A program made the translations under genes and the position numbers. From Candidatus Desulfofervidus auxilii (lineage in GTDB: Bacteria > Desulfobacterota > Desulfofervidia > Desulfofervidales > Desulfofervidaceae), in the NCBI RefSeq assembly GCF_001577525.1, contig NZ_CP013015.1, positions 2,180,475 to 2,244,474 on the forward strand: DNA of 64,000 nucleotides. Direction: 5' to 3'. Every line of letters starts with the position of its first letter. The first letter of the stretch is position 1. Below are positions 5,110-18,398 of this stretch, one piece after another. The notes below the pieces were generated by a model, which did not search any database, was not told the DNA's origin, and saw only the letters and a list, made by a program, of their open reading frames with translations.

Positions 5110-5442
5110 ATGTTTAGAAGATTCCTACTATTTCTTATAAGCTGTATCATAATTCTGCCATTAGTTTTCTTATCTTGTGTTCATGCAAGACCTCCAAAAC
5201 CTGGGCCTAATTTTGTTTGGGTAGCACCTCATACTACACCAAATGGTGTTTTTATTCCCGGACATTGGAAATATGTAGGACCCGCTAAAAAAGGGAAAGT
5301 GTGGATACCTGGTCATTATAGGCCTAATGGAAAATGGATACCAGGTCACTGGAAAATACTTACACCTCCACGTGCAAAAGCTGTGTGGGTGCCTGGCCAT
5401 TATGGACCTGGAGGGCGTTGGATACCAGGTCATTGGCGATAA
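5110..5442 (+). CDS. Lipoprotein with WxPGHW-type repeats (YXWGXW family)
   Basis: GGAGG at 5100-5104 precedes this ATG. The 110-residue product starts with a hydrophobic signal ending in VFLSC, a plausible lipobox, so the mature protein would be lipid-anchored at Cys 22. The remainder is a tandem array of motifs such as GVFIPGHWK, VWIPGHYRPNGKWIPGHW and VWVPGHYGPGGRWIPGHW, rich in Trp, Gly, His and Pro. These match the short YXWGXW/WxPGHW repeat proteins that are common as secreted proteins in Proteobacteria and whose function is not established. Confidence 0.75.
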   Translation: MFRRFLLFLISCIIILPLVFLSCVHARPPKPGPNFVWVAPHTTPNGVFIPGHWKYVGPAKKGKVWIPGHYRPNGKWIPGHWKILTPPRAKAVWVPGHYGPGGRWIPGHWR

Positions 5443-6172: not shown

Positions 6173-8497
6173 TTACTTCATTTTAAGTGATATTTTACCA
6201 TTCTTTATCACTGTAAGATATACCTTATCTAGACCCTGATGGTCATAAGGCCCAAAATTGAGAGCAGCACCTATCCCCAAATAGTGCATCCTCATTGATT
6301 CTATGGCCTTAATAAACCCCTCCCTAGTTAACTCCCTGCCTGCCCGCATAAGGGCTTCAACCAATATCTTGGCGTTTATAAATCCCTCAAAACTGACAAA
6401 ATTTGGAGTATCTTCAGGAAAATATCTCTCTAGTAGCCGACAATATTCCTCACAGGCTGGCAACAACACCCTTTCGGTAGGAGGAGGCACTACTTGAGTA
6501 ATAAACACACCTTCACCATCCCTTCCCAACTCTTTAAGCAATTTATCTGCTCCCACAAAAGAAACATTGTGAAAAATGGGATTGTATCCTCTTTTTTTGG
6601 CCTCTTTAATAAACTTGGCACAGGGACTATAAGTGCCCACCATAATTACTCCCTCTGCTTGAGAGCGAATAATCTCTTCTAACGCCTTTTCTATGTCTAA
6701 AGTCCCTCTTATATAACTGCCTGTAGCTACAGGTTTAAGCCCATATTTCCTTAAAGCAATCTCCGCTCCTCTAAGACCGTCTAATCCATAGGCATCATAT
6801 TGATAAAACACAGCAATCTTTTTTAATCCCTCATGCTCTATAAAATACCTCACCATTGTCTCTATCTCTTGATAATAAGAGGCCCTTACATTAAGAATAT
6901 ATTGCCTAAAAGGATGTCTAAGCTTATCTGCTCCTGTAAAAAGTCCCAGTAAAGGTATCTTTGACTCCTCTACTAAGTCAATTATCCTTACTGTAGTAGG
7001 TGTGCCTACATAACAAAACAGACAAAATACCTTATCTTCAAAGATAAGTTTTTTGGTATTAGCTACACACCTTGGAGGGTCATAACCATCATCATAGGCA
7101 ATAATTTTTATCTTTCTCCCATGAATCCCACCTTCTCTATTTATATGCTTTATGTAAGACAAAGCACCATGCAGATATTGGGTGCCCAGAAAACTAGCAT
7201 GCCCACTTAAGGCTAGAGATGAACCTATGAGAATTTCTCTGCTTTTTACTCCAGGGGTAGCTGTCTTATAAATCCATTTTTCAGGGATTAACTCAAATTT
7301 ACCATTCTTTATCACTGTAAGATATACCTTATCCAGGCCTTGATGGTCATCAGGCCCAAAATTGAGAGCAGCACCTATCCCCAAATAGTGCATCTTCATT
7401 GATTCTATGGCCTTAATAAATCCCTCCTTGGTCAACTCCCTACCTGCTCGCATAAGGGCTTCAACCAATATCTTGGCGTTTATAAATCCCTCAAAACTGA
7501 CAAAATTTGGAGTATCTTCAGGAAAATATCTCTCTAGTAGCCGACAATATTCCTCACAGGCTGGCAACAACACCCTTTCGGTAGGAGGAGGCACTACTTG
7601 AGTAATAAACACACCTTCACCATCCCTTCCCAACTCTTTAAGCAATTTATCTGCTCCCACAAAAGAAACATTGTGAAAAATGGGATTGTATCCTCTTTTT
7701 TTGGCCTCTTTAATAAACTTGGCACAGGGACTATAAGTGCCCACCATAATTACTCCCTCTGCTTGAGAGCGAATAATCTCTTCTAACGCCTTTTCTATGT
7801 CTAAAGTCCCTCTTATATAACTGCCTGTAGCTACAGGTTTAAGCCCATATTTCCTTAAAGCAATCTCCGCTCCTCTAAGACCGTCTAATCCATAGGCATC
7901 ATATTGATAAAACACAGCAATCTTTTTTAATCCCTCATGCTCTATAAAATACCTCACCATTGTCTCTATCTCTTGATAATAAGAGGCCCTTACATTAAGA
8001 ATATATTGCCTAAAAGGATGTCTAAGCTTATCTGCTCCTGTAAAAAGTCCCAGTAAAGGTATCTTTGACTCCTCTACTAAGTCAATTATCCTTACTGTAG
8101 TAGGTGTGCCTACATAACAAAACAGACAAAATACCTTATCTTCAAAGATAAGTTTTTTGGTATTAGCTACACACCTTGGAGGGTCATAACCATCATCATA
8201 GGCAATAATTTTTATCTTTCTCCCATGAATCCCACCTTCTCTATTTATATGATTTATGTAAGACAAAGCACCATGCAGATATTGGGTGCCCAGAAAACTG
8301 GCATGCCCACTTAGAGCTAGAGATGAACCTATGAGAATAGTATCCTTAGAAACACCCTGGATTTTGACAAAAGCACCTACTGTGGGCTTTTGTTCAGACT
8401 TTTTAGCAACTTTGCTTTCAGGATTGAAATAACCATAGAGGCCATATATAGCAATACCTAAATTAATAAAAATAAAAAATAACCATAATCTTTTCAC
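6173..8497 (-). CDS. Double-domain branched-chain-amino-acid-type solute-binding protein
   Basis: The 774-aa protein has one N-terminal hydrophobic helix (residues 4-24, no lipobox), so it is periplasmic or inner-membrane anchored. Two nearly identical type I periplasmic binding domains (Peripla_BP_6, LivK-like) follow, each starting at ILIGSSLALSGHASFLG (about 54 and 422). Differences are few substitutions plus a divergent end: copy 2 stops at NGKISLKMK. The start overlaps the upstream receiver gene by 4 bp. No permease or ATPase genes accompany it. With a kinase and receiver in the same operon, a ligand-sensing rather than transport role is plausible (inference). The ligand is unknown. Confidence 0.85.
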   Translation of the reverse strand: MKRLWLFFIFINLGIAIYGLYGYFNPESKVAKKSEQKPTVGAFVKIQGVSKDTILIGSSLALSGHASFLGTQYLHGALSYINHINREGGIHGRKIKIIAYDDGYDPPRCVANTKKLIFEDKVFCLFCYVGTPTTVRIIDLVEESKIPLLGLFTGADKLRHPFRQYILNVRASYYQEIETMVRYFIEHEGLKKIAVFYQYDAYGLDGLRGAEIALRKYGLKPVATGSYIRGTLDIEKALEEIIRSQAEGVIMVGTYSPCAKFIKEAKKRGYNPIFHNVSFVGADKLLKELGRDGEGVFITQVVPPPTERVLLPACEEYCRLLERYFPEDTPNFVSFEGFINAKILVEALMRAGRELTKEGFIKAIESMKMHYLGIGAALNFGPDDHQGLDKVYLTVIKNGKFELIPEKWIYKTATPGVKSREILIGSSLALSGHASFLGTQYLHGALSYIKHINREGGIHGRKIKIIAYDDGYDPPRCVANTKKLIFEDKVFCLFCYVGTPTTVRIIDLVEESKIPLLGLFTGADKLRHPFRQYILNVRASYYQEIETMVRYFIEHEGLKKIAVFYQYDAYGLDGLRGAEIALRKYGLKPVATGSYIRGTLDIEKALEEIIRSQAEGVIMVGTYSPCAKFIKEAKKRGYNPIFHNVSFVGADKLLKELGRDGEGVFITQVVPPPTERVLLPACEEYCRLLERYFPEDTPNFVSFEGFINAKILVEALMRAGRELTREGFIKAIESMRMHYLGIGAALNFGPYDHQGLDKVYLTVIKNGKISLKMK
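6192..7234 (-). repeat. 1043-bp tandem direct repeat, unit A
   Basis: Pairs with 7296-8338 at a constant offset of 1104 bp with no indel. Mismatches cluster in the first ~250 bases and last ~100 bases; the middle reads as identical. Confidence 0.9.
7296..8338 (-). repeat. 1043-bp tandem direct repeat, unit B
   Basis: Second unit of the in-frame duplication within the solute-binding protein gene; see 6192-7234. Confidence 0.9.
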
Positions 8498-8865
8498 TCG
8501 GATTCTCCTAATACCTTTTCTATTTTATTTAAAAGTTCCATGGGGCTGAATGGTTTGACAAAATAATCATCCGCACCTACAGCATATCCTTTTTCTATGT
8601 CTTGTTTTTGTCCCTTTGCTGTAAGCATGATAATATAAGAACCTTTTGTCTCTGAATTATTTTTTAACCGTTTGCAGACCTCAAATCCATCCATTCCTGG
8701 CATCATGATATCCAAAAGAATAAGGGCAGGCTTTTCTTCTTGGGCAATTTTTAAGGCTTCCTCTCCATCTTTAGCCTGGAATATTTGGAAGTCACCAATA
8801 TCTAAAGTAGTCTCTATCAACCTTCTTACCCTTTCTTCATCATCTACGATTAATATCTTCTTCAT
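8494..8865 (-). CDS. Single-domain response regulator (CheY-like receiver)
   Basis: The 123-aa receiver shows VDDE near residue 8, the phospho-acceptor D52 in LLDIMMPGMDG, the Thr/Ala switch LTAKG near 83 and Lys in FVKPFSP. There is no output domain. I prefer the ATG at 8865 because GGAGG lies just before it; an upstream ATG at 8877 is in frame. It overlaps the 3' end of the kinase gene and ends in an ATGA overlap with the binding-protein gene, so the kinase is very likely its partner. It may act by protein-protein contact or pass phosphate onward. Confidence 0.88.
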   Translation of the reverse strand: MKKILIVDDEERVRRLIETTLDIGDFQIFQAKDGEEALKIAQEEKPALILLDIMMPGMDGFEVCKRLKNNSETKGSYIIMLTAKGQKQDIEKGYAVGADDYFVKPFSPMELLNKIEKVLGESE

Positions 8866-11161
8866 GTTGTCCTCCATTTATAGGTATATTGAACACCACC
8901 TTTGTTCCTTTACCTACATCACTCTCTACCTTTATTTCACCTCCATGAGCTTCAACAATATGTTTGGAAATAGAAAGTCCCAATCCTGTTCCTCTCATAT
9001 TTACTACATCAAGGCGGCTTCCTCTATAAAACTTATCAAAAATATAAGGCAAATCCTCTTTGGGAATACCAATACCTTGATCTTCAATACTTACCCAAAC
9101 ACAACCATCTTTTTTATAAACACAACAGGTAATATCACCACCTTTTGAATATTTAATGGCATTATCTAAGAGGTTTTTTATGACCTGGCTAATCTTTTCA
9201 GGGTCAATCCAAACATGAGGTATATTTTTTTCAAACTTGGTAATAAACCTATGAGTGTCCGTAGAATGCATAAAAAAATGAATATTTTTTTGGATTATTT
9301 CCAACAATTGCACATGACTCCTTTCAATTTCAAGCTCTCCTTTGGCCTCTATCCGGGAAATATCAAGCAAATCATTGACTAAACGGGCCAAATGTATAGA
9401 TTCCTCATGAATAAAGGCTAAAAATTCTTCTTTTGTTTTTTCATCCAGGCTTCTGGTTAAAAGAAGCTCACTATATCCCAGTAATGTGGTCAAAGGTGTT
9501 CTTAACTCATGAGAAGCGGTAGAAAGAAATTCTGTTTTTACTTTATCAGCTTTCTTTAATTCTTCTTGCATCTGCATCAACTGCCAGTTAGTTTTTTCTA
9601 AATTGGCAATCAGCCTTTTTATTTCACTGATATCTTTAAAAATCTCTACGCCTCCAATAGGCTTATTCTCTATACCCATCAAAGGAGCAGCGCTAGCCAT
9701 AATAGCTCTCTTTTCATTGTTTTTATCAAATATACTCATTTCTACATTCAAACATGCTCTCCCTGTTTCTATAGACTTTTTAATAGGACAATTTCTTTCA
9801 CATTCCTCAGCCTTAAATATCTCCATACACTTTTTACCAATAACCTCTTCTGCCTTATATCCCGTTAGCTCTTCTGCTGCCTTATTGAAAGAAGTTATTC
9901 TCCATTGCCTATCTATAGTAAATAGACCATCAGCAATACTTTTCAAAATTGCTTCTATCTTATCCTTTTCTAAGGCTAGCTCTTTTGTCCTTTCCTCTAC
10001 TTTTTTTTCTAAAGTCTTACTATATTTTTCAATTTCATCTCGGGACTTCTTTAAATCTTCGGCCATTTTGTTAAATGCCAAAGCTAACTCTCCAATTTCG
10101 TCTCTAGATTCTACACTTGCTCTTTGCTCTAATGCTCCTCTTGCCAACTGTTTGGTAACCTCTGTCAATCTCTTTAAAGGAGAAATAATAGCTTTAGAAA
10201 GCTGAATGGCAAAAAATACTCCCCATATAACGCTACCTATAGAAAGTAATAAACCAAATTTAAAAATTTTTGCTAAGTTCTTATAATAATCATCTGCTCT
10301 ATAACTAACATATATAACTCCCTCTAATTTTTCACTTTTTCTGAGAGGCATAGCTATTATGTAAAGTTTTTGCGAGGGTAGCAGTTGGGCAGCCAAATCG
10401 CTACCACTCATAACAGACCTTACCCATTTATTATCAGCAATGGTTTTTATTTTTTCTTCAATATTTGAAGCAATAACCCTGCCATCTTCATCAGTAACTG
10501 AAATTTCATAAATATTTTCTGATTCTCTTGCCAGTTTTTCCACCAGCCTTTGTAGATGGATAATCTTTCTTACCGCTTCCATTTTTCTGATAATGTAACT
10601 CAATGATTCTGCCATAATCCTGCTATCTATTTCCATTTGTCTTAAAATCAGTTTTCTGAATGCCTTTTTTGTTTGAAGATATTCTCTTATTTCAAAGACT
10701 GCTTCTACCGCTCCACATAACTCTCCATCTATCCTTAATGGATAGGCAGCAGCAAAGACTTTTTCCCCCATTCTAGAATCAAATCCACTGATATAATACC
10801 CTTTCTCTAAAACTTGAGGGATAATGTTGCTTTCGGTTATCTTACCTACATCTTCTCTAAAGGTAGCGGCAATGACTCTTTGATTGGTATCCACTACCCA
10901 CACACCAAACATCCCTTCGGTTAAAGAAACCTCTTCTACTAATTCCTGGAGCCTCACTTTGTCAGCAATGTCTTTTCTACTTGTAATACTAATGGTTAGG
11001 GCCTTATTTAAAACAATAGCATGTGACTTCATATTCTTAAGAAGACTGTTTTTTTCTAGCATATAGCTTATGCAAAAAGACGCACTACCCATTAAAATAA
11101 GCAGGGAAATAATGGCTAAGGTAAATTTTGTTTTAATACTTAAGTCTCTTATAGGTCTCAT
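8840..11161 (-). CDS. Membrane histidine kinase (double sensor-HAMP-PAS-HisKA-HATPase)
   Basis: The 773-aa kinase has TM1 at about 12-34, then a roughly 260-residue periplasmic part with two Cache/PAS-like halves (VWVVDTNQRVIAAT and ISVTDEDGRVIAS). TM2 is at 302-322, then HAMP (to about 375), a coiled coil and a PAS domain (400-515). The PAS has Cys445, 454, 458 and 470 in a spacing often seen in redox-type PAS domains. HisKA carries H551 in SHELRTPL. HATPase has DNAIKYS, DQGIGIP and GTGLGLSI. It sits between a tetraheme cytochrome/helical sensor pair and its receiver, suggesting a redox or ligand signal (inference). Confidence 0.9.
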   Translation of the reverse strand: MRPIRDLSIKTKFTLAIISLLILMGSASFCISYMLEKNSLLKNMKSHAIVLNKALTISITSRKDIADKVRLQELVEEVSLTEGMFGVWVVDTNQRVIAATFREDVGKITESNIIPQVLEKGYYISGFDSRMGEKVFAAAYPLRIDGELCGAVEAVFEIREYLQTKKAFRKLILRQMEIDSRIMAESLSYIIRKMEAVRKIIHLQRLVEKLARESENIYEISVTDEDGRVIASNIEEKIKTIADNKWVRSVMSGSDLAAQLLPSQKLYIIAMPLRKSEKLEGVIYVSYRADDYYKNLAKIFKFGLLLSIGSVIWGVFFAIQLSKAIISPLKRLTEVTKQLARGALEQRASVESRDEIGELALAFNKMAEDLKKSRDEIEKYSKTLEKKVEERTKELALEKDKIEAILKSIADGLFTIDRQWRITSFNKAAEELTGYKAEEVIGKKCMEIFKAEECERNCPIKKSIETGRACLNVEMSIFDKNNEKRAIMASAAPLMGIENKPIGGVEIFKDISEIKRLIANLEKTNWQLMQMQEELKKADKVKTEFLSTASHELRTPLTTLLGYSELLLTRSLDEKTKEEFLAFIHEESIHLARLVNDLLDISRIEAKGELEIERSHVQLLEIIQKNIHFFMHSTDTHRFITKFEKNIPHVWIDPEKISQVIKNLLDNAIKYSKGGDITCCVYKKDGCVWVSIEDQGIGIPKEDLPYIFDKFYRGSRLDVVNMRGTGLGLSISKHIVEAHGGEIKVESDVGKGTKVVFNIPINGGQHEEDINRR

Positions 11162-11167
11162 GAGGAA

Positions 11168-12004
11168 TTAAATATTCTTGGTATAAAATACAATCAACTC
11201 AATCCCGCCCAAAATGAGAAGAACCAAAAGGGTAGTTAGAAGAATTTGGAGTTTTTTATAAGCAAAGTCAATTTTCTGCTGAGTTGCTTTACATATACAG
11301 TGAATTACTCCTTCTATCTTTCTTACTTCTTTTCTCATCAACTCCAATGTTTTATCCATTTGTTCATAATTAGAAACAATCTCTTCAAATAATTCACTAT
11401 CTTTATCCATTAACTCATTTATACGTTTATCCCCTTCTGCCCACATTAGGAGATTTCTAACTGCGATTTTACGCTTTTCTGAATATGGCTTTTCATGAAA
11501 AAGAAGCGGTTTTTCTCGGAAAAGCATATAAGATTTTTCTTGTAACCGAATCTCCAGGAGGGCAATAGTGCCCCTTTCAGGATTAGGCTTAGAAAAAATA
11601 GTAGCTTGAATTATCCTCTCCAATTTCCTTAATTCTTCTATAATTTTCTCATTAGTTTCATGATAGAACTTTAATTGTTCAAACAATTTTTCATATAAAT
11701 CTATAGACCCATGTAATTTAGAAAAATTTATTTTCTTCAAATCACACATTTCCTCACAAGAGGAAACAAGTTTTTTTAGCTCTTTCAAGTGTTCCTTAAT
11801 TTTATTTTTTTTATAAGGATTAAGTCTGTATTCTCTCTCATCTATATTTATCTTAAAAGCAGTTTTTACTATACTATCTGCTACTTTTTGGATTTCCATG
11901 TCTTTTTTAATATCCCTCAATGTCAGATAAGCAATGCCGGCTAACAGAATAGAAAATACAATACAGACGCTAAAGGTAGTTAAAACTAGTTTTTTGCTAA
12001 TCAT
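11168..12004 (-). CDS. Two-TM helical periplasmic sensor-like protein without output domain
   Basis: 278 aa with TM helices at about 7-29 and 252-272 and a long alpha-helical periplasmic region between, like the four-helix-bundle or HBM sensor halves of chemoreceptors and kinases. No HAMP, kinase or methyl-accepting domain follows the second TM. Cysteines are grouped (SSCEEMC near 83-87, HCIC near 235). The gene overlaps the upstream cytochrome gene by 4 bp and the kinase gene starts 7 bases downstream. It probably modulates that kinase or relays redox state from the cytochrome (inference). Confidence 0.7.
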   Translation of the reverse strand: MISKKLVLTTFSVCIVFSILLAGIAYLTLRDIKKDMEIQKVADSIVKTAFKINIDEREYRLNPYKKNKIKEHLKELKKLVSSCEEMCDLKKINFSKLHGSIDLYEKLFEQLKFYHETNEKIIEELRKLERIIQATIFSKPNPERGTIALLEIRLQEKSYMLFREKPLLFHEKPYSEKRKIAVRNLLMWAEGDKRINELMDKDSELFEEIVSNYEQMDKTLELMRKEVRKIEGVIHCICKATQQKIDFAYKKLQILLTTLLVLLILGGIELIVFYTKNI

Positions 12005-12468
12005 TTCTTGATTTCTTTCTTTACTTTATGCTCTATCCGTTTTTTATATTTTTCGTAATCAAACTGAGGTGTCCAGTTTTGGTCATGACACTGAATACAG
12101 ACCGTTTTATAATCTATATGAGTGCCTACAGGCAACGAATTTGGGTCTGTGGGATTTTCCTTATGTTTACTACCTGGACCGTGACAGGCTTCACATTGCA
12201 CTCCTCTCAGTTGAGGTGTGATTTTCTCACTTATAAAACCACCTGGTTCTCCATATCCAGTGGTATGACATTTCAAACAATAAGGATTATCTTTCATTCT
12301 CCTCAGACTTTCAAAAGCCATAGCATGTAAGTCTTTCTCCCATCCTTGGAAGTAATCAAAATGGCAGAGTCTACACTTCCTACTTCCGATATAATATAAT
12401 TTTTCTTTAGATTCTGCTGGGATAACTATTATTGGAATTAATATACTTAAGATTATCAAAATTCTCAT
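12001..12468 (-). CDS. Tetraheme c-type cytochrome (cytochrome c554-like), periplasmic
   Basis: 155 aa with an N-terminal export signal (ILIILSILIPIIVIPA). Four CxxCH heme-binding motifs follow: CRLCH, CLKCH, CEACH and CIQCH, with extra His residues for axial ligands. The spacing resembles the cytochrome c554 / multiheme NrfH-related fold. It is the first gene of a five-gene minus-strand operon with a sensor, histidine kinase, receiver and solute-binding protein. That context suggests a sensory or regulated electron-transfer role rather than bulk respiration (inference). Confidence 0.85.
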   Translation of the reverse strand: MRILIILSILIPIIVIPAESKEKLYYIGSRKCRLCHFDYFQGWEKDLHAMAFESLRRMKDNPYCLKCHTTGYGEPGGFISEKITPQLRGVQCEACHGPGSKHKENPTDPNSLPVGTHIDYKTVCIQCHDQNWTPQFDYEKYKKRIEHKVKKEIKK

Positions 12469-12542: not shown

Positions 12543-12574
12543 ACCTGCCTGTGCGTGTCCGCACGCAGACAGGT
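12543..12574. repeat. GC-rich imperfect hairpin
   Basis: ACCTGCCTGTGCGTG pairs with CACGCAGACAGGT across a short loop. Similar CTGCC/GGCAG hairpins occur at 26696 and 63587. It could be a bidirectional terminator or a mobile palindrome. Confidence 0.55.
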
Positions 12575-15236: not shown

Positions 15237-15491
15237 CTACTCGCCTGTTCCTGCTTTTTCTGCAGATATGCCTCTTCCCTTCAAACCATACATGGTGCTA
15301 CTTCCAGTGGAGAAATACTCCAGCACACCTTCCTGAACTAAAGCAGTAGCTGCTTTTTTCACTTCCCTTGATTTCACATCTGGAATGGTCTTTTTCACTG
15401 CTTTTTCCATGTCTTTGAAATAAAACTTGGTTTTTTTACCTTTACCCGCATAGGCAACAATAGCTTCTTTTATTTCTTCTAATGAGGCCAT
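15237..15491 (-). CDS. dsrD: Dissimilatory sulfite reductase-associated protein DsrD
   Basis: 84 aa, close to the usual ~78-aa length, with the winged-helix sequence of DsrD (FYFKDMEKAVKK, SREVKKAATALVQEGVLEYFSTGSSTMYGLKGRG). It is the third gene of dsrABD. DsrD is found in reductive-type (sulfate/sulfite-reducing) organisms and has been reported to stimulate DsrAB activity. Its presence supports the reductive direction. A strong hairpin separates it from dsrB, and an AAGGAG-type site precedes its ATG. Confidence 0.92.
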   Translation of the reverse strand: MASLEEIKEAIVAYAGKGKKTKFYFKDMEKAVKKTIPDVKSREVKKAATALVQEGVLEYFSTGSSTMYGLKGRGISAEKAGTGE

Positions 15492-15592
15492 ATTTAACTC
15501 CTTTTAAACCAAAATTTTACATTCTTCTTATCACAATTTTTTAAAAAAAACAACCCCTTCGCCCCGATTATTTTTATCCACCAAAAATATAG

Positions 15593-15627
15593 GCTCCGCT
15601 TGTTGAGCCAATGCATACAAGCGGAGC
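15593..15627 (-). terminator. Hairpin between dsrB and dsrD
   Basis: A perfect 10-bp stem, GCTCCGCTTG (15593-15602) with CAAGCGGAGC (15618-15627), around a 15-base loop. On the minus strand only a short interrupted T run follows, so it is more likely a partial terminator or mRNA-processing/stability hairpin. That would lower or separate dsrD expression. Confidence 0.6.
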
Positions 15628-15654
15628 ACTATACCATGTTTAAGTTACCCTTGC

Positions 15655-16845
15655 TTAAATACCTCCTGCGGCCTTAGATACTGCCCAGGCATGTTCTGTA
15701 AACTTAAATTGGGTAGTAGTCCTATAAGTATCATAGGCCAAACGATAATCATCCAAAATATGCCAAGTAAAAGGCAAACCTGTCTTCTCAAAGAATCTCT
15801 CCCAGCCAATCCTTTCGGCCCAATCACCTAAACGCTCATATTTTCTGGCATCTTTGGCATAGGCTTCCACAATCTGAACCACTGTCTTGCATACACTGGG
15901 CCAGCGTGGAGGCTCATTAGGTAAAATAGGCACCACCACTTTAGAGAATTTGGGATGGCTAATGCGGTTGGAAATTTTTCCACCAGCCAAAATAGACACA
16001 CCGTCTCCCTCTTTATCGGCTAAAGGAGTGGCCATACACATGGTATAACAATTACCACAGAACATGCACCTCTGCTCATTCACCCGCACACTATTCACTT
16101 TTGTACCATCTTCCAATTCTACTTTCACCGGACGAATAGCCCCTAAAGGACAAGCGGCCACTACCAAAGGAATTTCACAAACCTTATCTAAAACCTCGTC
16201 ATCAATCATAGGGGGCTTGCGATGATAACCTAACAGAGCAATATCAGAACAATGTACTGCCCCACACATATTCAGACAACAAGCCATAGATACCCTGAGC
16301 TTGGCAGGTAAGTTCATATTTTTAAAATAGTCAAATAAAACATCATGCACAGCCTTTACCATACCAGAGGCATCAGTAGCTGGGGTATGGCAGTGAAACC
16401 AACCCTGAGTATGCACAATACCTGTAATAGATGCACCTGTTCCCCCTACAGGAAACTTATAACTACCGCCAACGTGTTTCCTGCTTTCTAAATCTTCCTT
16501 TAGGGCCTTCATTTTTTCTTCACTATCCACCATAAATTCAACTGCATTTCTAGTAGTCCATCTCACATAACCATCGCAATATTTATCTGCGATATCACAA
16601 ATCTCCCGAATATTTTCTGCAGTCACCAATCTTGGCTGACCTACCCTCACAGTGTAAACCTTCTCTCCGGTTTCAGAAACATGCATTAACACCCCTGGCT
16701 CTAAAATCTCATGATAAAGCCACTTTCCATAATTCCTCCTGATAATAGGAGGAAACATCTGCCAATAATGTGGGGGACCAATATCGGTAATCCTATCTTT
16801 CATTGGATTTTCTGGGTCATAATATCCAAATTTCCCTTTAGACAT
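15655..16845 (-). CDS. dsrB: Dissimilatory sulfite reductase beta subunit
   Basis: With DsrA it reduces sulfite, via a DsrC-bound intermediate, in the cytoplasm. The 396-aa protein has the sulfite reductase ferredoxin-like half ([24 protein letters not shown]). Siroheme/cluster-region cysteines are C152 and C189-199 in [14 protein letters not shown] ferredoxin insert (C232, then [11 protein letters not shown] at 260-270) follows. It begins 17 bases downstream of dsrA. Length and motifs are those of reductive-type DsrB. Confidence 0.95.
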
Positions 16846-16862
16846 AACACACCTCCTATTTT

Positions 16863-18299
16863 TTATCTTGGATGTTTCTTCCTGAATTCCTTAATGTCTC
16901 TCTTCCAACCACCAGGCACTTCTTCTTCTTTAAAGAACACATAGGGGTTAGAACGAGGCTCTTTTACCATCTGAGGCATGGCTGGAATTTCAAGGACTTC
17001 TAAGAACTGCCTCAGACCAAACCGCTGAATTAACTCACCCAATCTCTCACGGTTCTTTCCTTCTTCCATCCACCAATCCCAAACCTTATCTACAATCTCT
17101 TTCAGGTTATCATATGGTTTTTCTGTATACATAAAAGGTATGGTCAAGGTAGACATCTGTGCCCCTTCTAAAATAGGTGCCTTGGCTCCAAAGAGGAGAC
17201 TTACCCCGGTATCTACTCCTACCCTTAATGCCCTAGGCATTACATTTATGCAATGCATACAACGCACACATTCAGCATCATTAATCTTCAGTTCATTTCC
17301 ATCCCAAGACATACACTTACTAGGACAAAGGTCAATCACTTCCTTTTGTATATCAAAAGGACCCCAATCTCTTCCTGAAAATGCTCCAGCATTGGGTGTA
17401 ATTTCTCCTGCTACATAGGCCTTCACTGCTTCCTGGTCAATGCGAATATTATCCTTCCATGTCCCAATATAAGACATATCTGCACGGGCAATAGAGGCTA
17501 CACAGCAATTCGGACATCCATCAAATTTAAACTTAAATTTATAAGGGAAGGCTGGTCTATGTAATTCATCTTGATAATGCATAGTCATCTCGTAACACAT
17601 ATCCTGGGTATCAATCATGGCATACTCACACCTTGCCTTCCCAATACAGCAAGAGGGAGTTCTTAAATTTGAACCCGAACCACCCAAATCCACACCCAGG
17701 TCATGGGTTAAATCAAAAAATATGGGTTCTAACTGTTCCGTAACTGCTCCTAAAAAGACAGTATCACCGGTAGAGCCATGCATATTCATTATTCCACTAC
17801 CCCGATATTCACAAATATCAGCGAGTCCCCTCAAGTAATCGGTGGTATAAAACTTGCTGGAAGGTTGATTAATTCTTAAGGTATGAAATGCCCAAATAGC
17901 AGGGAATTTCTCTTGGGCATCAGAATATCTTCCAATTACACCACCACCATAGCCAAATACTCCAATGATACCACCGTGTTTCCAGTGGGTTTCCATATCT
18001 ATGTAAGATAACTCAAGTTGTCCTAACAAATCTTCACAACATTCCATAGGCCCCTGCAAATTTTCCTGCCCCAGTTTCCTTCTATGTAACGCTTCTCTTT
18101 TGATGTCACTTATTACACTAGGCCATGGCCCTTTTTCTAATTCATCAGCCATGGGAGTGTCATGTTTAATCTTAAAAGTCTTCAATTCTTCTTCGGTGTA
18201 ATTTTTTAACTGTTCGTCAGTAAAGATTCTCACATCTTCATATGTCCTATGGCCTTCTACTTCTTTATCCCACAAGTGTTCTTGTCCTTCGGCTGACAT
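16863..18299 (-). CDS. dsrA: Dissimilatory sulfite reductase alpha subunit
   Basis: The catalytic alpha subunit. I start at the ATG at 18299, six bases after GGAGG; an upstream TTG at 18305 is less likely. The 478-aa protein has the coupled siroheme-[4Fe-4S] motif C218-x5-C224 ([11 protein letters not shown]) and C262-x3-C266 (GCPNCC). A ferredoxin domain follows with CVRCMHC near 344-350. It is somewhat longer than the ~437 aa of Desulfovibrio DsrA, mainly at the ends. It heads dsrABD and lies immediately downstream of qmoC. Confidence 0.96.
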
Positions 18300-18398
18300 A
18301 TTCAACCTCCTTCTTTAATTATTTATTTTTCGCAACCAAAATAGCATCTATATAACACCCTTTTTCTTCCACCCCCTTTCTTCTAAAAAATTTTCTCT

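Follow-up and report, generated by a model that had tools for sequence, protein, structure and literature searches.

The TorT/TorS/TorC system of trimethylamine N-oxide respiration in E. coli and Vibrio offers a precedent for a periplasmic integrator built around one kinase (PMC8534201; PMC11727998). The binding protein TorT binds the HBM/ligand-binding domain of TorS (PMC6321045), and the cytochrome TorC binds the periplasmic part of TorS in both its apo and holo forms with a KD near 1 µM, apo-TorC blocking signalling (PMC11727998). LuxP acts on the double-PDC kinase LuxQ (PMC8534201), and in Corynebacterium the all-helical membrane mediator GlnX, which has no kinase of its own, is thought to relay from a binding protein to a separate kinase (PMC9769921). 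Here we analyze a five-gene cassette from Candidatus Desulfofervidus auxilii (HotSeep-1), whose genome is one contig of 2,540,211 bp. The cassette lies on the minus strand at 12468-6173 of a 64,000-nucleotide stretch (the window) and encodes, in transcription order, a secreted tetraheme cytochrome (CYT), a helical membrane protein (HEL), a sensor histidine kinase (HK), a stand-alone receiver (RR) and a solute-binding protein (SBP).

Every element of this cassette has a precedent, and Tor unites most of them. TorT-TorS-TorR/TorC and the cassette share a binding protein, an HBM-type helical domain (predicted for HEL), a multihaem cytochrome, a kinase and a receiver, and in both a type I periplasmic binding protein is encoded with the kinase. 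The cassette nonetheless falls outside the Tor family, because the sensor-kinase fusion, the phosphorelay and the DNA-binding output are missing. Its HBM-type domain resides on the separate, unfused HEL, and HK has a tandem Cache region instead; where Tor employs an unorthodox kinase (HisKA-receiver-HPt) and the DNA-binding TorR, the cassette has a bare receiver. Furthermore, its cytochrome is c554-type rather than NapC/NirT, its SBP is a Peripla_BP_6 protein with a probable anchor, and no reductase operon is attached. Tor serves anaerobic respiration, and its cytochrome binds the sensor domain; in the cassette, the cytochrome and the sensor are linked as genes.

The remaining relatives are more partial. 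GlnH-GlnX-PknG likewise combines a binding protein with a tandem four-helix-bundle membrane protein lacking a kinase domain, but its kinase, PknG, is soluble and of the Ser/Thr type, GlnX contains four transmembrane (TM) segments, and there is no cytochrome or receiver. In LuxP-LuxQ and XylFII-LytS a binding protein activates a membrane histidine kinase, and the double PDC of LuxQ resembles the cassette HK, but neither has a cytochrome or a separate helical subunit. A sequence-only reading of this DNA had been unaware of any system described with precisely these parts. We found none in the part of the literature covered, although Tor, which that reading did not name, is a close functional relative.

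A tight and conserved operon

All five open reading frames (ORFs) were confirmed, and the successive junctions along CYT-HEL-HK-RR-SBP measure -4, +6, -26 and -4 nt, in agreement with the sequence-only view of genes that overlap or nearly touch. The 26-nt overlap of RR with HK depends on the RR start, for which position 8865 is likelier than the earlier ATG at 8877 given in the ORF list (8494-8877), since a GGAGG lies upstream and orthologues begin MKKILIVDDE. Pfam and NCBIfam scans of the five proteins returned no transporter, DNA-binding domain or methyl-accepting chemotaxis protein (MCP) domain, absences that had also been correctly called from the sequence. A promoter and terminator scan gave matches no more numerous than in shuffled sequence.

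Using HEL as the marker, we searched for the cassette in 395 genomes sampled from the whole phylum and then in 291 Desulfobacterales genomes. The first sample yielded one strong HEL match beyond HotSeep-1, in G350, where all five genes stand in the same order; the family of G350 holds three additional HEL carriers. In the second, HEL was found at E<1e-100 in 13 of the 291 genomes, from families f51, f144 and f163. Complete five-gene sets number ten, comprising HotSeep-1 and nine uncultured Desulfobacterales from three families (G350, G406, G408, G531, G552, G596, G631, G582 and G637) with identical gene order. The cassettes of G395, G501 and G652 are interrupted by contig ends, and that of G657 is damaged or gapped. 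The sequence-only reading had staked its operon on conserved synteny, and order and content proved the same in these nine genomes. Strong HEL matches occur exclusively inside the cassette, and wherever upstream sequence exists HEL is never without CYT. HEL was absent from the four other Desulfofervidaceae sampled and from one further member of the order.

The flanks of the cassette vary from family to family, which marks it as a self-contained unit. CYT is among its most conserved proteins by sequence, with 62-66% identity over the full alignment and 70-73% over the mature part, compared with 34-43% for HEL. In a tree, the HotSeep-1 SBP clusters with Desulfobacterales cassette SBPs and not with SBPs of its own family; the clade of cassette SBPs, HotSeep-1 included, has a support of 0.98. 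This position suggests that the cassette SBP moved between lineages, in either direction. In G552, a [NiFe] hydrogenase small-subunit gene (L109 10669-11898) lies downstream, in the same orientation as the cassette, with hypA upstream.

Sensor subunits and the short-cytochrome pairing

HEL (11168-12004, minus strand; 278 aa) consists of a periplasmic helical domain of ~220 aa between two TM helices, with hydrophobic segments at both ends, no Pfam match and no CXXCH. An AlphaFold model built with five sequences (mean pLDDT 86.6) predicts two stacked helical bundles between the TM helices, as in the HBM fold. The McpS HBM/ligand-binding domain aligns with this model at Z 16.2 and a root-mean-square deviation of 2.1 over 201 residues (VIA alignment), although this Z is just above the tool's warning level for helical bundles, which score high easily. 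The TorS sensor domain gave Z 13.3 and TorS-TorT complexes Z 12-13, and Foldseek ranked McpS first (E 0.004). That HEL folds as an HBM sensor domain is thus supported by the model, but not certain. HEL has no kinase, MCP or cytoplasmic output domain and stops a few residues past its second TM helix, and therefore cannot signal alone. In G407 (L086 7449-12558), a 644-aa protein of receptor length with a HEL-like N-terminal domain has genes for a c-haem sensor and a tetraheme cytochrome close by, possibly an ancestor-like arrangement.

HK (8840-11161, minus strand; 773 aa) has two TM segments and tandem Cache, HAMP, PAS, HisKA and HATPase domains according to Pfam and a structural model; it ends in the HATPase and contains no CXXCH. 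Residues 1-400, modelled at a mean pLDDT of 74, are predicted to form two helix-plus-PDC modules, with the WalK Cache domain as the best match (Z 16.1). The PAS domain is present in HotSeep-1 and missing from cassette orthologues. A kinase with a double PDC/Cache region and an SBP in the same operon reproduces the composition of LuxPQ-type receptors. RR (8494-8865, minus strand; ~123 aa, PF00072 4.4e-32) is a bare receiver. Convergent to the cassette at L111 (11056-11913), with equivalents at L107, L110, L112 and L115, is a gene for a 285-aa soluble histidine kinase, seen in one genome of family f163 and in several of f144; this kinase is a possible partner of the lone receiver.

CYT (12001-12468, minus strand; 155 aa) has four CXXCH motifs and scores 64.9 bits on PF13435 against a cut-off of 20.8 (E 1.4e-17), which places it in the cytochrome c554 family; its nearest solved relative is cytochrome c554 1bvb. 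The C-terminal motif NWTPxFxYxKYxxRIxH is kept in 12 cassette members and missing from the three paralogues in the HotSeep-1 genome, making it a candidate docking surface specific to the cassette. Each of these paralogues stands directly 5′ of a two-TM sensor with one CXXCH (L073 6436-8679, L074 7786-10300, L075 5347-8039). Two of the sensors are histidine kinases and one is an MCP in a chemotaxis-like cluster. They weakly match PF21563, the family of Geobacter c-haem MCP and kinase sensors of sCache_heme type such as GSU0582 and GSU0935 (PMC12889525), from which the haem-free cassette HK and HEL differ; a term search of that paper found no mention of a tetraheme gene partner. Among the short CYT loci parsed with their neighbors (79 relatives), 12 of 13, counting the HotSeep-1 cassette, continue directly into a membrane sensor or HEL; 11 of the 12 have sensors, each with one haem motif. 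Long CYT homologues (>300 aa) show no sensor pairing. These gene neighborhoods provide a general lead that short c554-type cytochromes pair with membrane sensors beyond HotSeep-1.

The binding protein and the formate dehydrogenase link of its relatives

SBP (6173-8497, minus strand; 774 aa, GTG start) matches Peripla_BP_6 at 8.7e-121, with two separate stretches on PF13458. It is composed of two in-frame copies of one domain, a feature missed by the sequence-only reading: domain 1 spans residues ~50-405 (7283-8350) and domain 2 residues ~417-769 (6191-7249), the halves being 98% identical. The repeat unit is 1104 bp, and an 803-bp block at 7449-8251 is 100% DNA-identical to the block 1104 bp downstream (6345-7147), with divergence confined to the unit ends. 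Such a near-perfect repeat carries the signature of recent duplication or homogenization. With the genome assembled as a single contig and the copies differing from each other at either end, we consider an assembly artefact unlikely. Other tandem SBP fusions occur in Desulfobacterales genus g285 (G445, G607 and G652; L187, L188 and L189), with halves 80-87% identical. A shared ancestral tandem was rejected, as the HotSeep-1 halves pair with each other in the tree, where the tandem SBPs of f144 represent a fusion of their own.

SBP is probably membrane-anchored, given an N-terminal hydrophobic segment that is kept in orthologues, as is the LYGY motif that follows. The best NCBIfam match, below cut-off, is a branched-chain amino-acid binding protein. 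In an alignment with LivJ at only 22% identity, SBP has Ser in place of the LivJ binding residue Glu226 and Gly in place of Thr102. At this identity, the comparison weakly disfavors an alpha-amino-acid ligand.

Related SBPs across Desulfobacterales occur in SBP-HK or SBP-HK-RR units, and pairs of SBP and HK without CYT or HEL are common. To locate these units relative to formate metabolism, we compared SBP positions with those of the formate dehydrogenase-N alpha gene, fdnG, in the same 291 genomes. Among mid-scoring SBP loci in FdnG-bearing genomes, 21 of 34 have fdnG no more than 25 kb away, and most of these no more than 10 kb, and these members span 11 families; none of the six weakest-scoring, more distant SBPs is that close. 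An SBP-HK-RR unit also stands beside fdnG in G040, from an unrelated family. Cassette SBPs fall outside this FdnG-linked clade, as its sister (support 0.92), and SBP is 58-65% identical to the sampled members. The fdnG-adjacent SBP-HK(-RR) systems (L195, L199, L203, L205 and L057) differ from the cassette: in those inspected, CYT and HEL are both absent and the kinase is of another build, and some of their RRs have a second domain. This clade appears to be a two-component system, tied to formate, that has yet to be described; we found no formate-sensing SBP system of sulfate reducers in the literature partially covered.

A formate or C1/electron-donor signal is accordingly a strong lead for the FdnG-linked clade. 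For HotSeep-1 it is only a lead, since cassette SBPs are merely sister to that clade and the genome has no FdnG; for the latter reason we do not accept a formate-only interpretation outright. The electron-acceptor sensing that the sequence-only reading offered as a possibility is not supported, as the context of related SBPs (formate dehydrogenase and hydrogenase) points to the electron-donor side; nor is there support for its other suggestion, syntrophic-partner status. Growth of HotSeep-1 on H2 without anaerobic methanotrophic archaea (ANME) has been reported (PMC10553843).

A proposed Tor-like sensor and its competitors

We propose, with the scales about level, that the products of the five genes assemble into a single signalling complex in the membrane, a Tor-like two-component sensor in "unbundled" form that reads electron-donor and redox status. 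The anchored SBP would bind a small periplasmic ligand, probably formate or something tracking formate metabolism, and CYT would report what state the periplasmic cytochrome pool is in through its own redox or haem/occupancy state. Both may dock on HEL, on the tandem-Cache domain of HK, or on both. The two TM helices of HEL, lying next to the TM segments of HK, would relay the change to the kinase. HK would then phosphorylate the lone RR, whose presumed target has its gene outside the cassette. Most likely the input would be electron-donor status, with formate or a compound that tracks its metabolism as the probable ligand, read together with periplasmic redox state. A Tor-like arrangement is supported by the resemblance of the HEL model to HBM domains, the one in TorS binding both TorT and TorC, by the tight operon with its conserved order and cassette-only HEL, and by the adjacency of CYT relatives to sensors. 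An electron-donor input is supported by the linkage of sister SBPs to fdnG and by genus g285, where the cassette itself is divergent from fdhAB. The periplasmic integrator of the sequence-only reading is supported by the anatomy: it follows naturally from parts that include a single kinase, and it has the Tor precedent. More tentatively, the cassette could be a coincidence sensor in which CYT (carrier redox) and SBP (donor, for example formate) are read by a kinase-less HBM subunit gating a separate tandem-Cache kinase, with short c554-type cytochromes as dedicated electron-carrier subunits of many Desulfobacterota sensors; we regard this fuller version as possible but doubtful.

Several observations weigh against the Tor-like proposal. 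The fold match of HEL is of the helical-bundle type at 6-9% sequence identity, and Foldseek alone gave no match at E<=0.001. HK carries its own tandem Cache sensor and could function without SBP or CYT. The fdnG proximity is judged against a chance expectation of ~0.5 of the 34 loci, which uses an approximate genome size and ignores shared ancestry within families. FdnG is near the cassette only in genus g285 and not in the f51 and f163 loci read, and the formate link is not available in HotSeep-1, where the search for molybdopterin oxidoreductases turned up just one protein, of 762 aa and distinct from FdnG.

In a LuxPQ- or XylFII-LytS-like alternative, SBP docks directly on the tandem Cache of HK as the sole real input; CYT and HEL serve to tune the complex or to put it together, for instance through an apo-cytochrome check as for TorC, without a redox signal. 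The two Cache modules belong to the fold class bound by LuxP in LuxQ (PMC8534201), and in relatives with only SBP and HK that pair suffices. Strong conservation of CYT, and its constant company with HEL, would however be odd for a dispensable tuner, and we consider this alternative rather unlikely. A pure redox sensor, with CYT informing HEL and HK much as its homologues apparently inform the c-haem sensors beside them and with SBP vestigial or structural, draws on the recurrent pairing of CYT with one-c-haem sensors. We judge it improbable, as HEL and HK lack CXXCH and hence offer no visible electron acceptor, and SBP is highly conserved and even duplicated in HotSeep-1. That SBP is an ordinary ABC-transporter binding protein with unrelated operon neighbors is barely credible: Peripla_BP_6 is mostly a transporter family and the sub-threshold NCBIfam match agrees, but no permease or ATPase accompanies the HotSeep-1 cassette or the complete cassettes elsewhere, the N-terminus is probably anchored, the amino-acid-binding positions are not retained, and the gene order kept in distant genomes largely refutes it.

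That the cassette senses direct interspecies electron transfer from ANME archaea is likewise quite improbable. Two of the three further carriers in the family of G350 were also found as the metagenome-assembled genomes (MAGs) Desulfobacterales CSMAG_2504 and Desulfobacteraceae CSMAG_410, whose prefix we take to denote a cold seep, but the Desulfobacterales carriers could not be tied to known ANME-partner clades. Few MAGs had a 16S gene; that of G652 (f144) shows 3 mismatches to the fluorescence in situ hybridization probe SEEP1a-473. HotSeep-1 itself is a known ANME partner (PMC10553843), yet SBPs of the sister clade occur widely in Desulfobacterales next to formate dehydrogenase. A term search of two papers on genomes of syntrophic sulfate-reducing bacteria found no transcriptome report on HotSeep-1 regulators.

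The cassette is real, conserved and worth bench work. It bears on how sulfate reducers, ANME partners included, sense the state of periplasmic electron carriers, on which to our knowledge little has been described, and it supplies a defined set of five genes together with a ligand to test (formate or a related C1 signal) and a redox input that can likewise be tested. Two general leads reach beyond the HotSeep-1 genome: an SBP-kinase clade linked to formate dehydrogenase, and short tetraheme cytochromes paired with membrane sensors.

Upstream of the cassette, an imperfect inverted repeat, CCTGTCTGCGTGCGGACACGCACAGGCAGG, lies at 12544-12573 and occurs as a single copy within the window. On the other side, 5110-5442 encodes a small secreted-looking protein with W-P-G-H repeats, just under the Pfam cut-off for WXXGXW. 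Farther upstream, at 15237-18305, are genes that by eye we take to be dsrD and those for dissimilatory sulfite reductase subunits, neighbored by a Pfam-supported uvrC.

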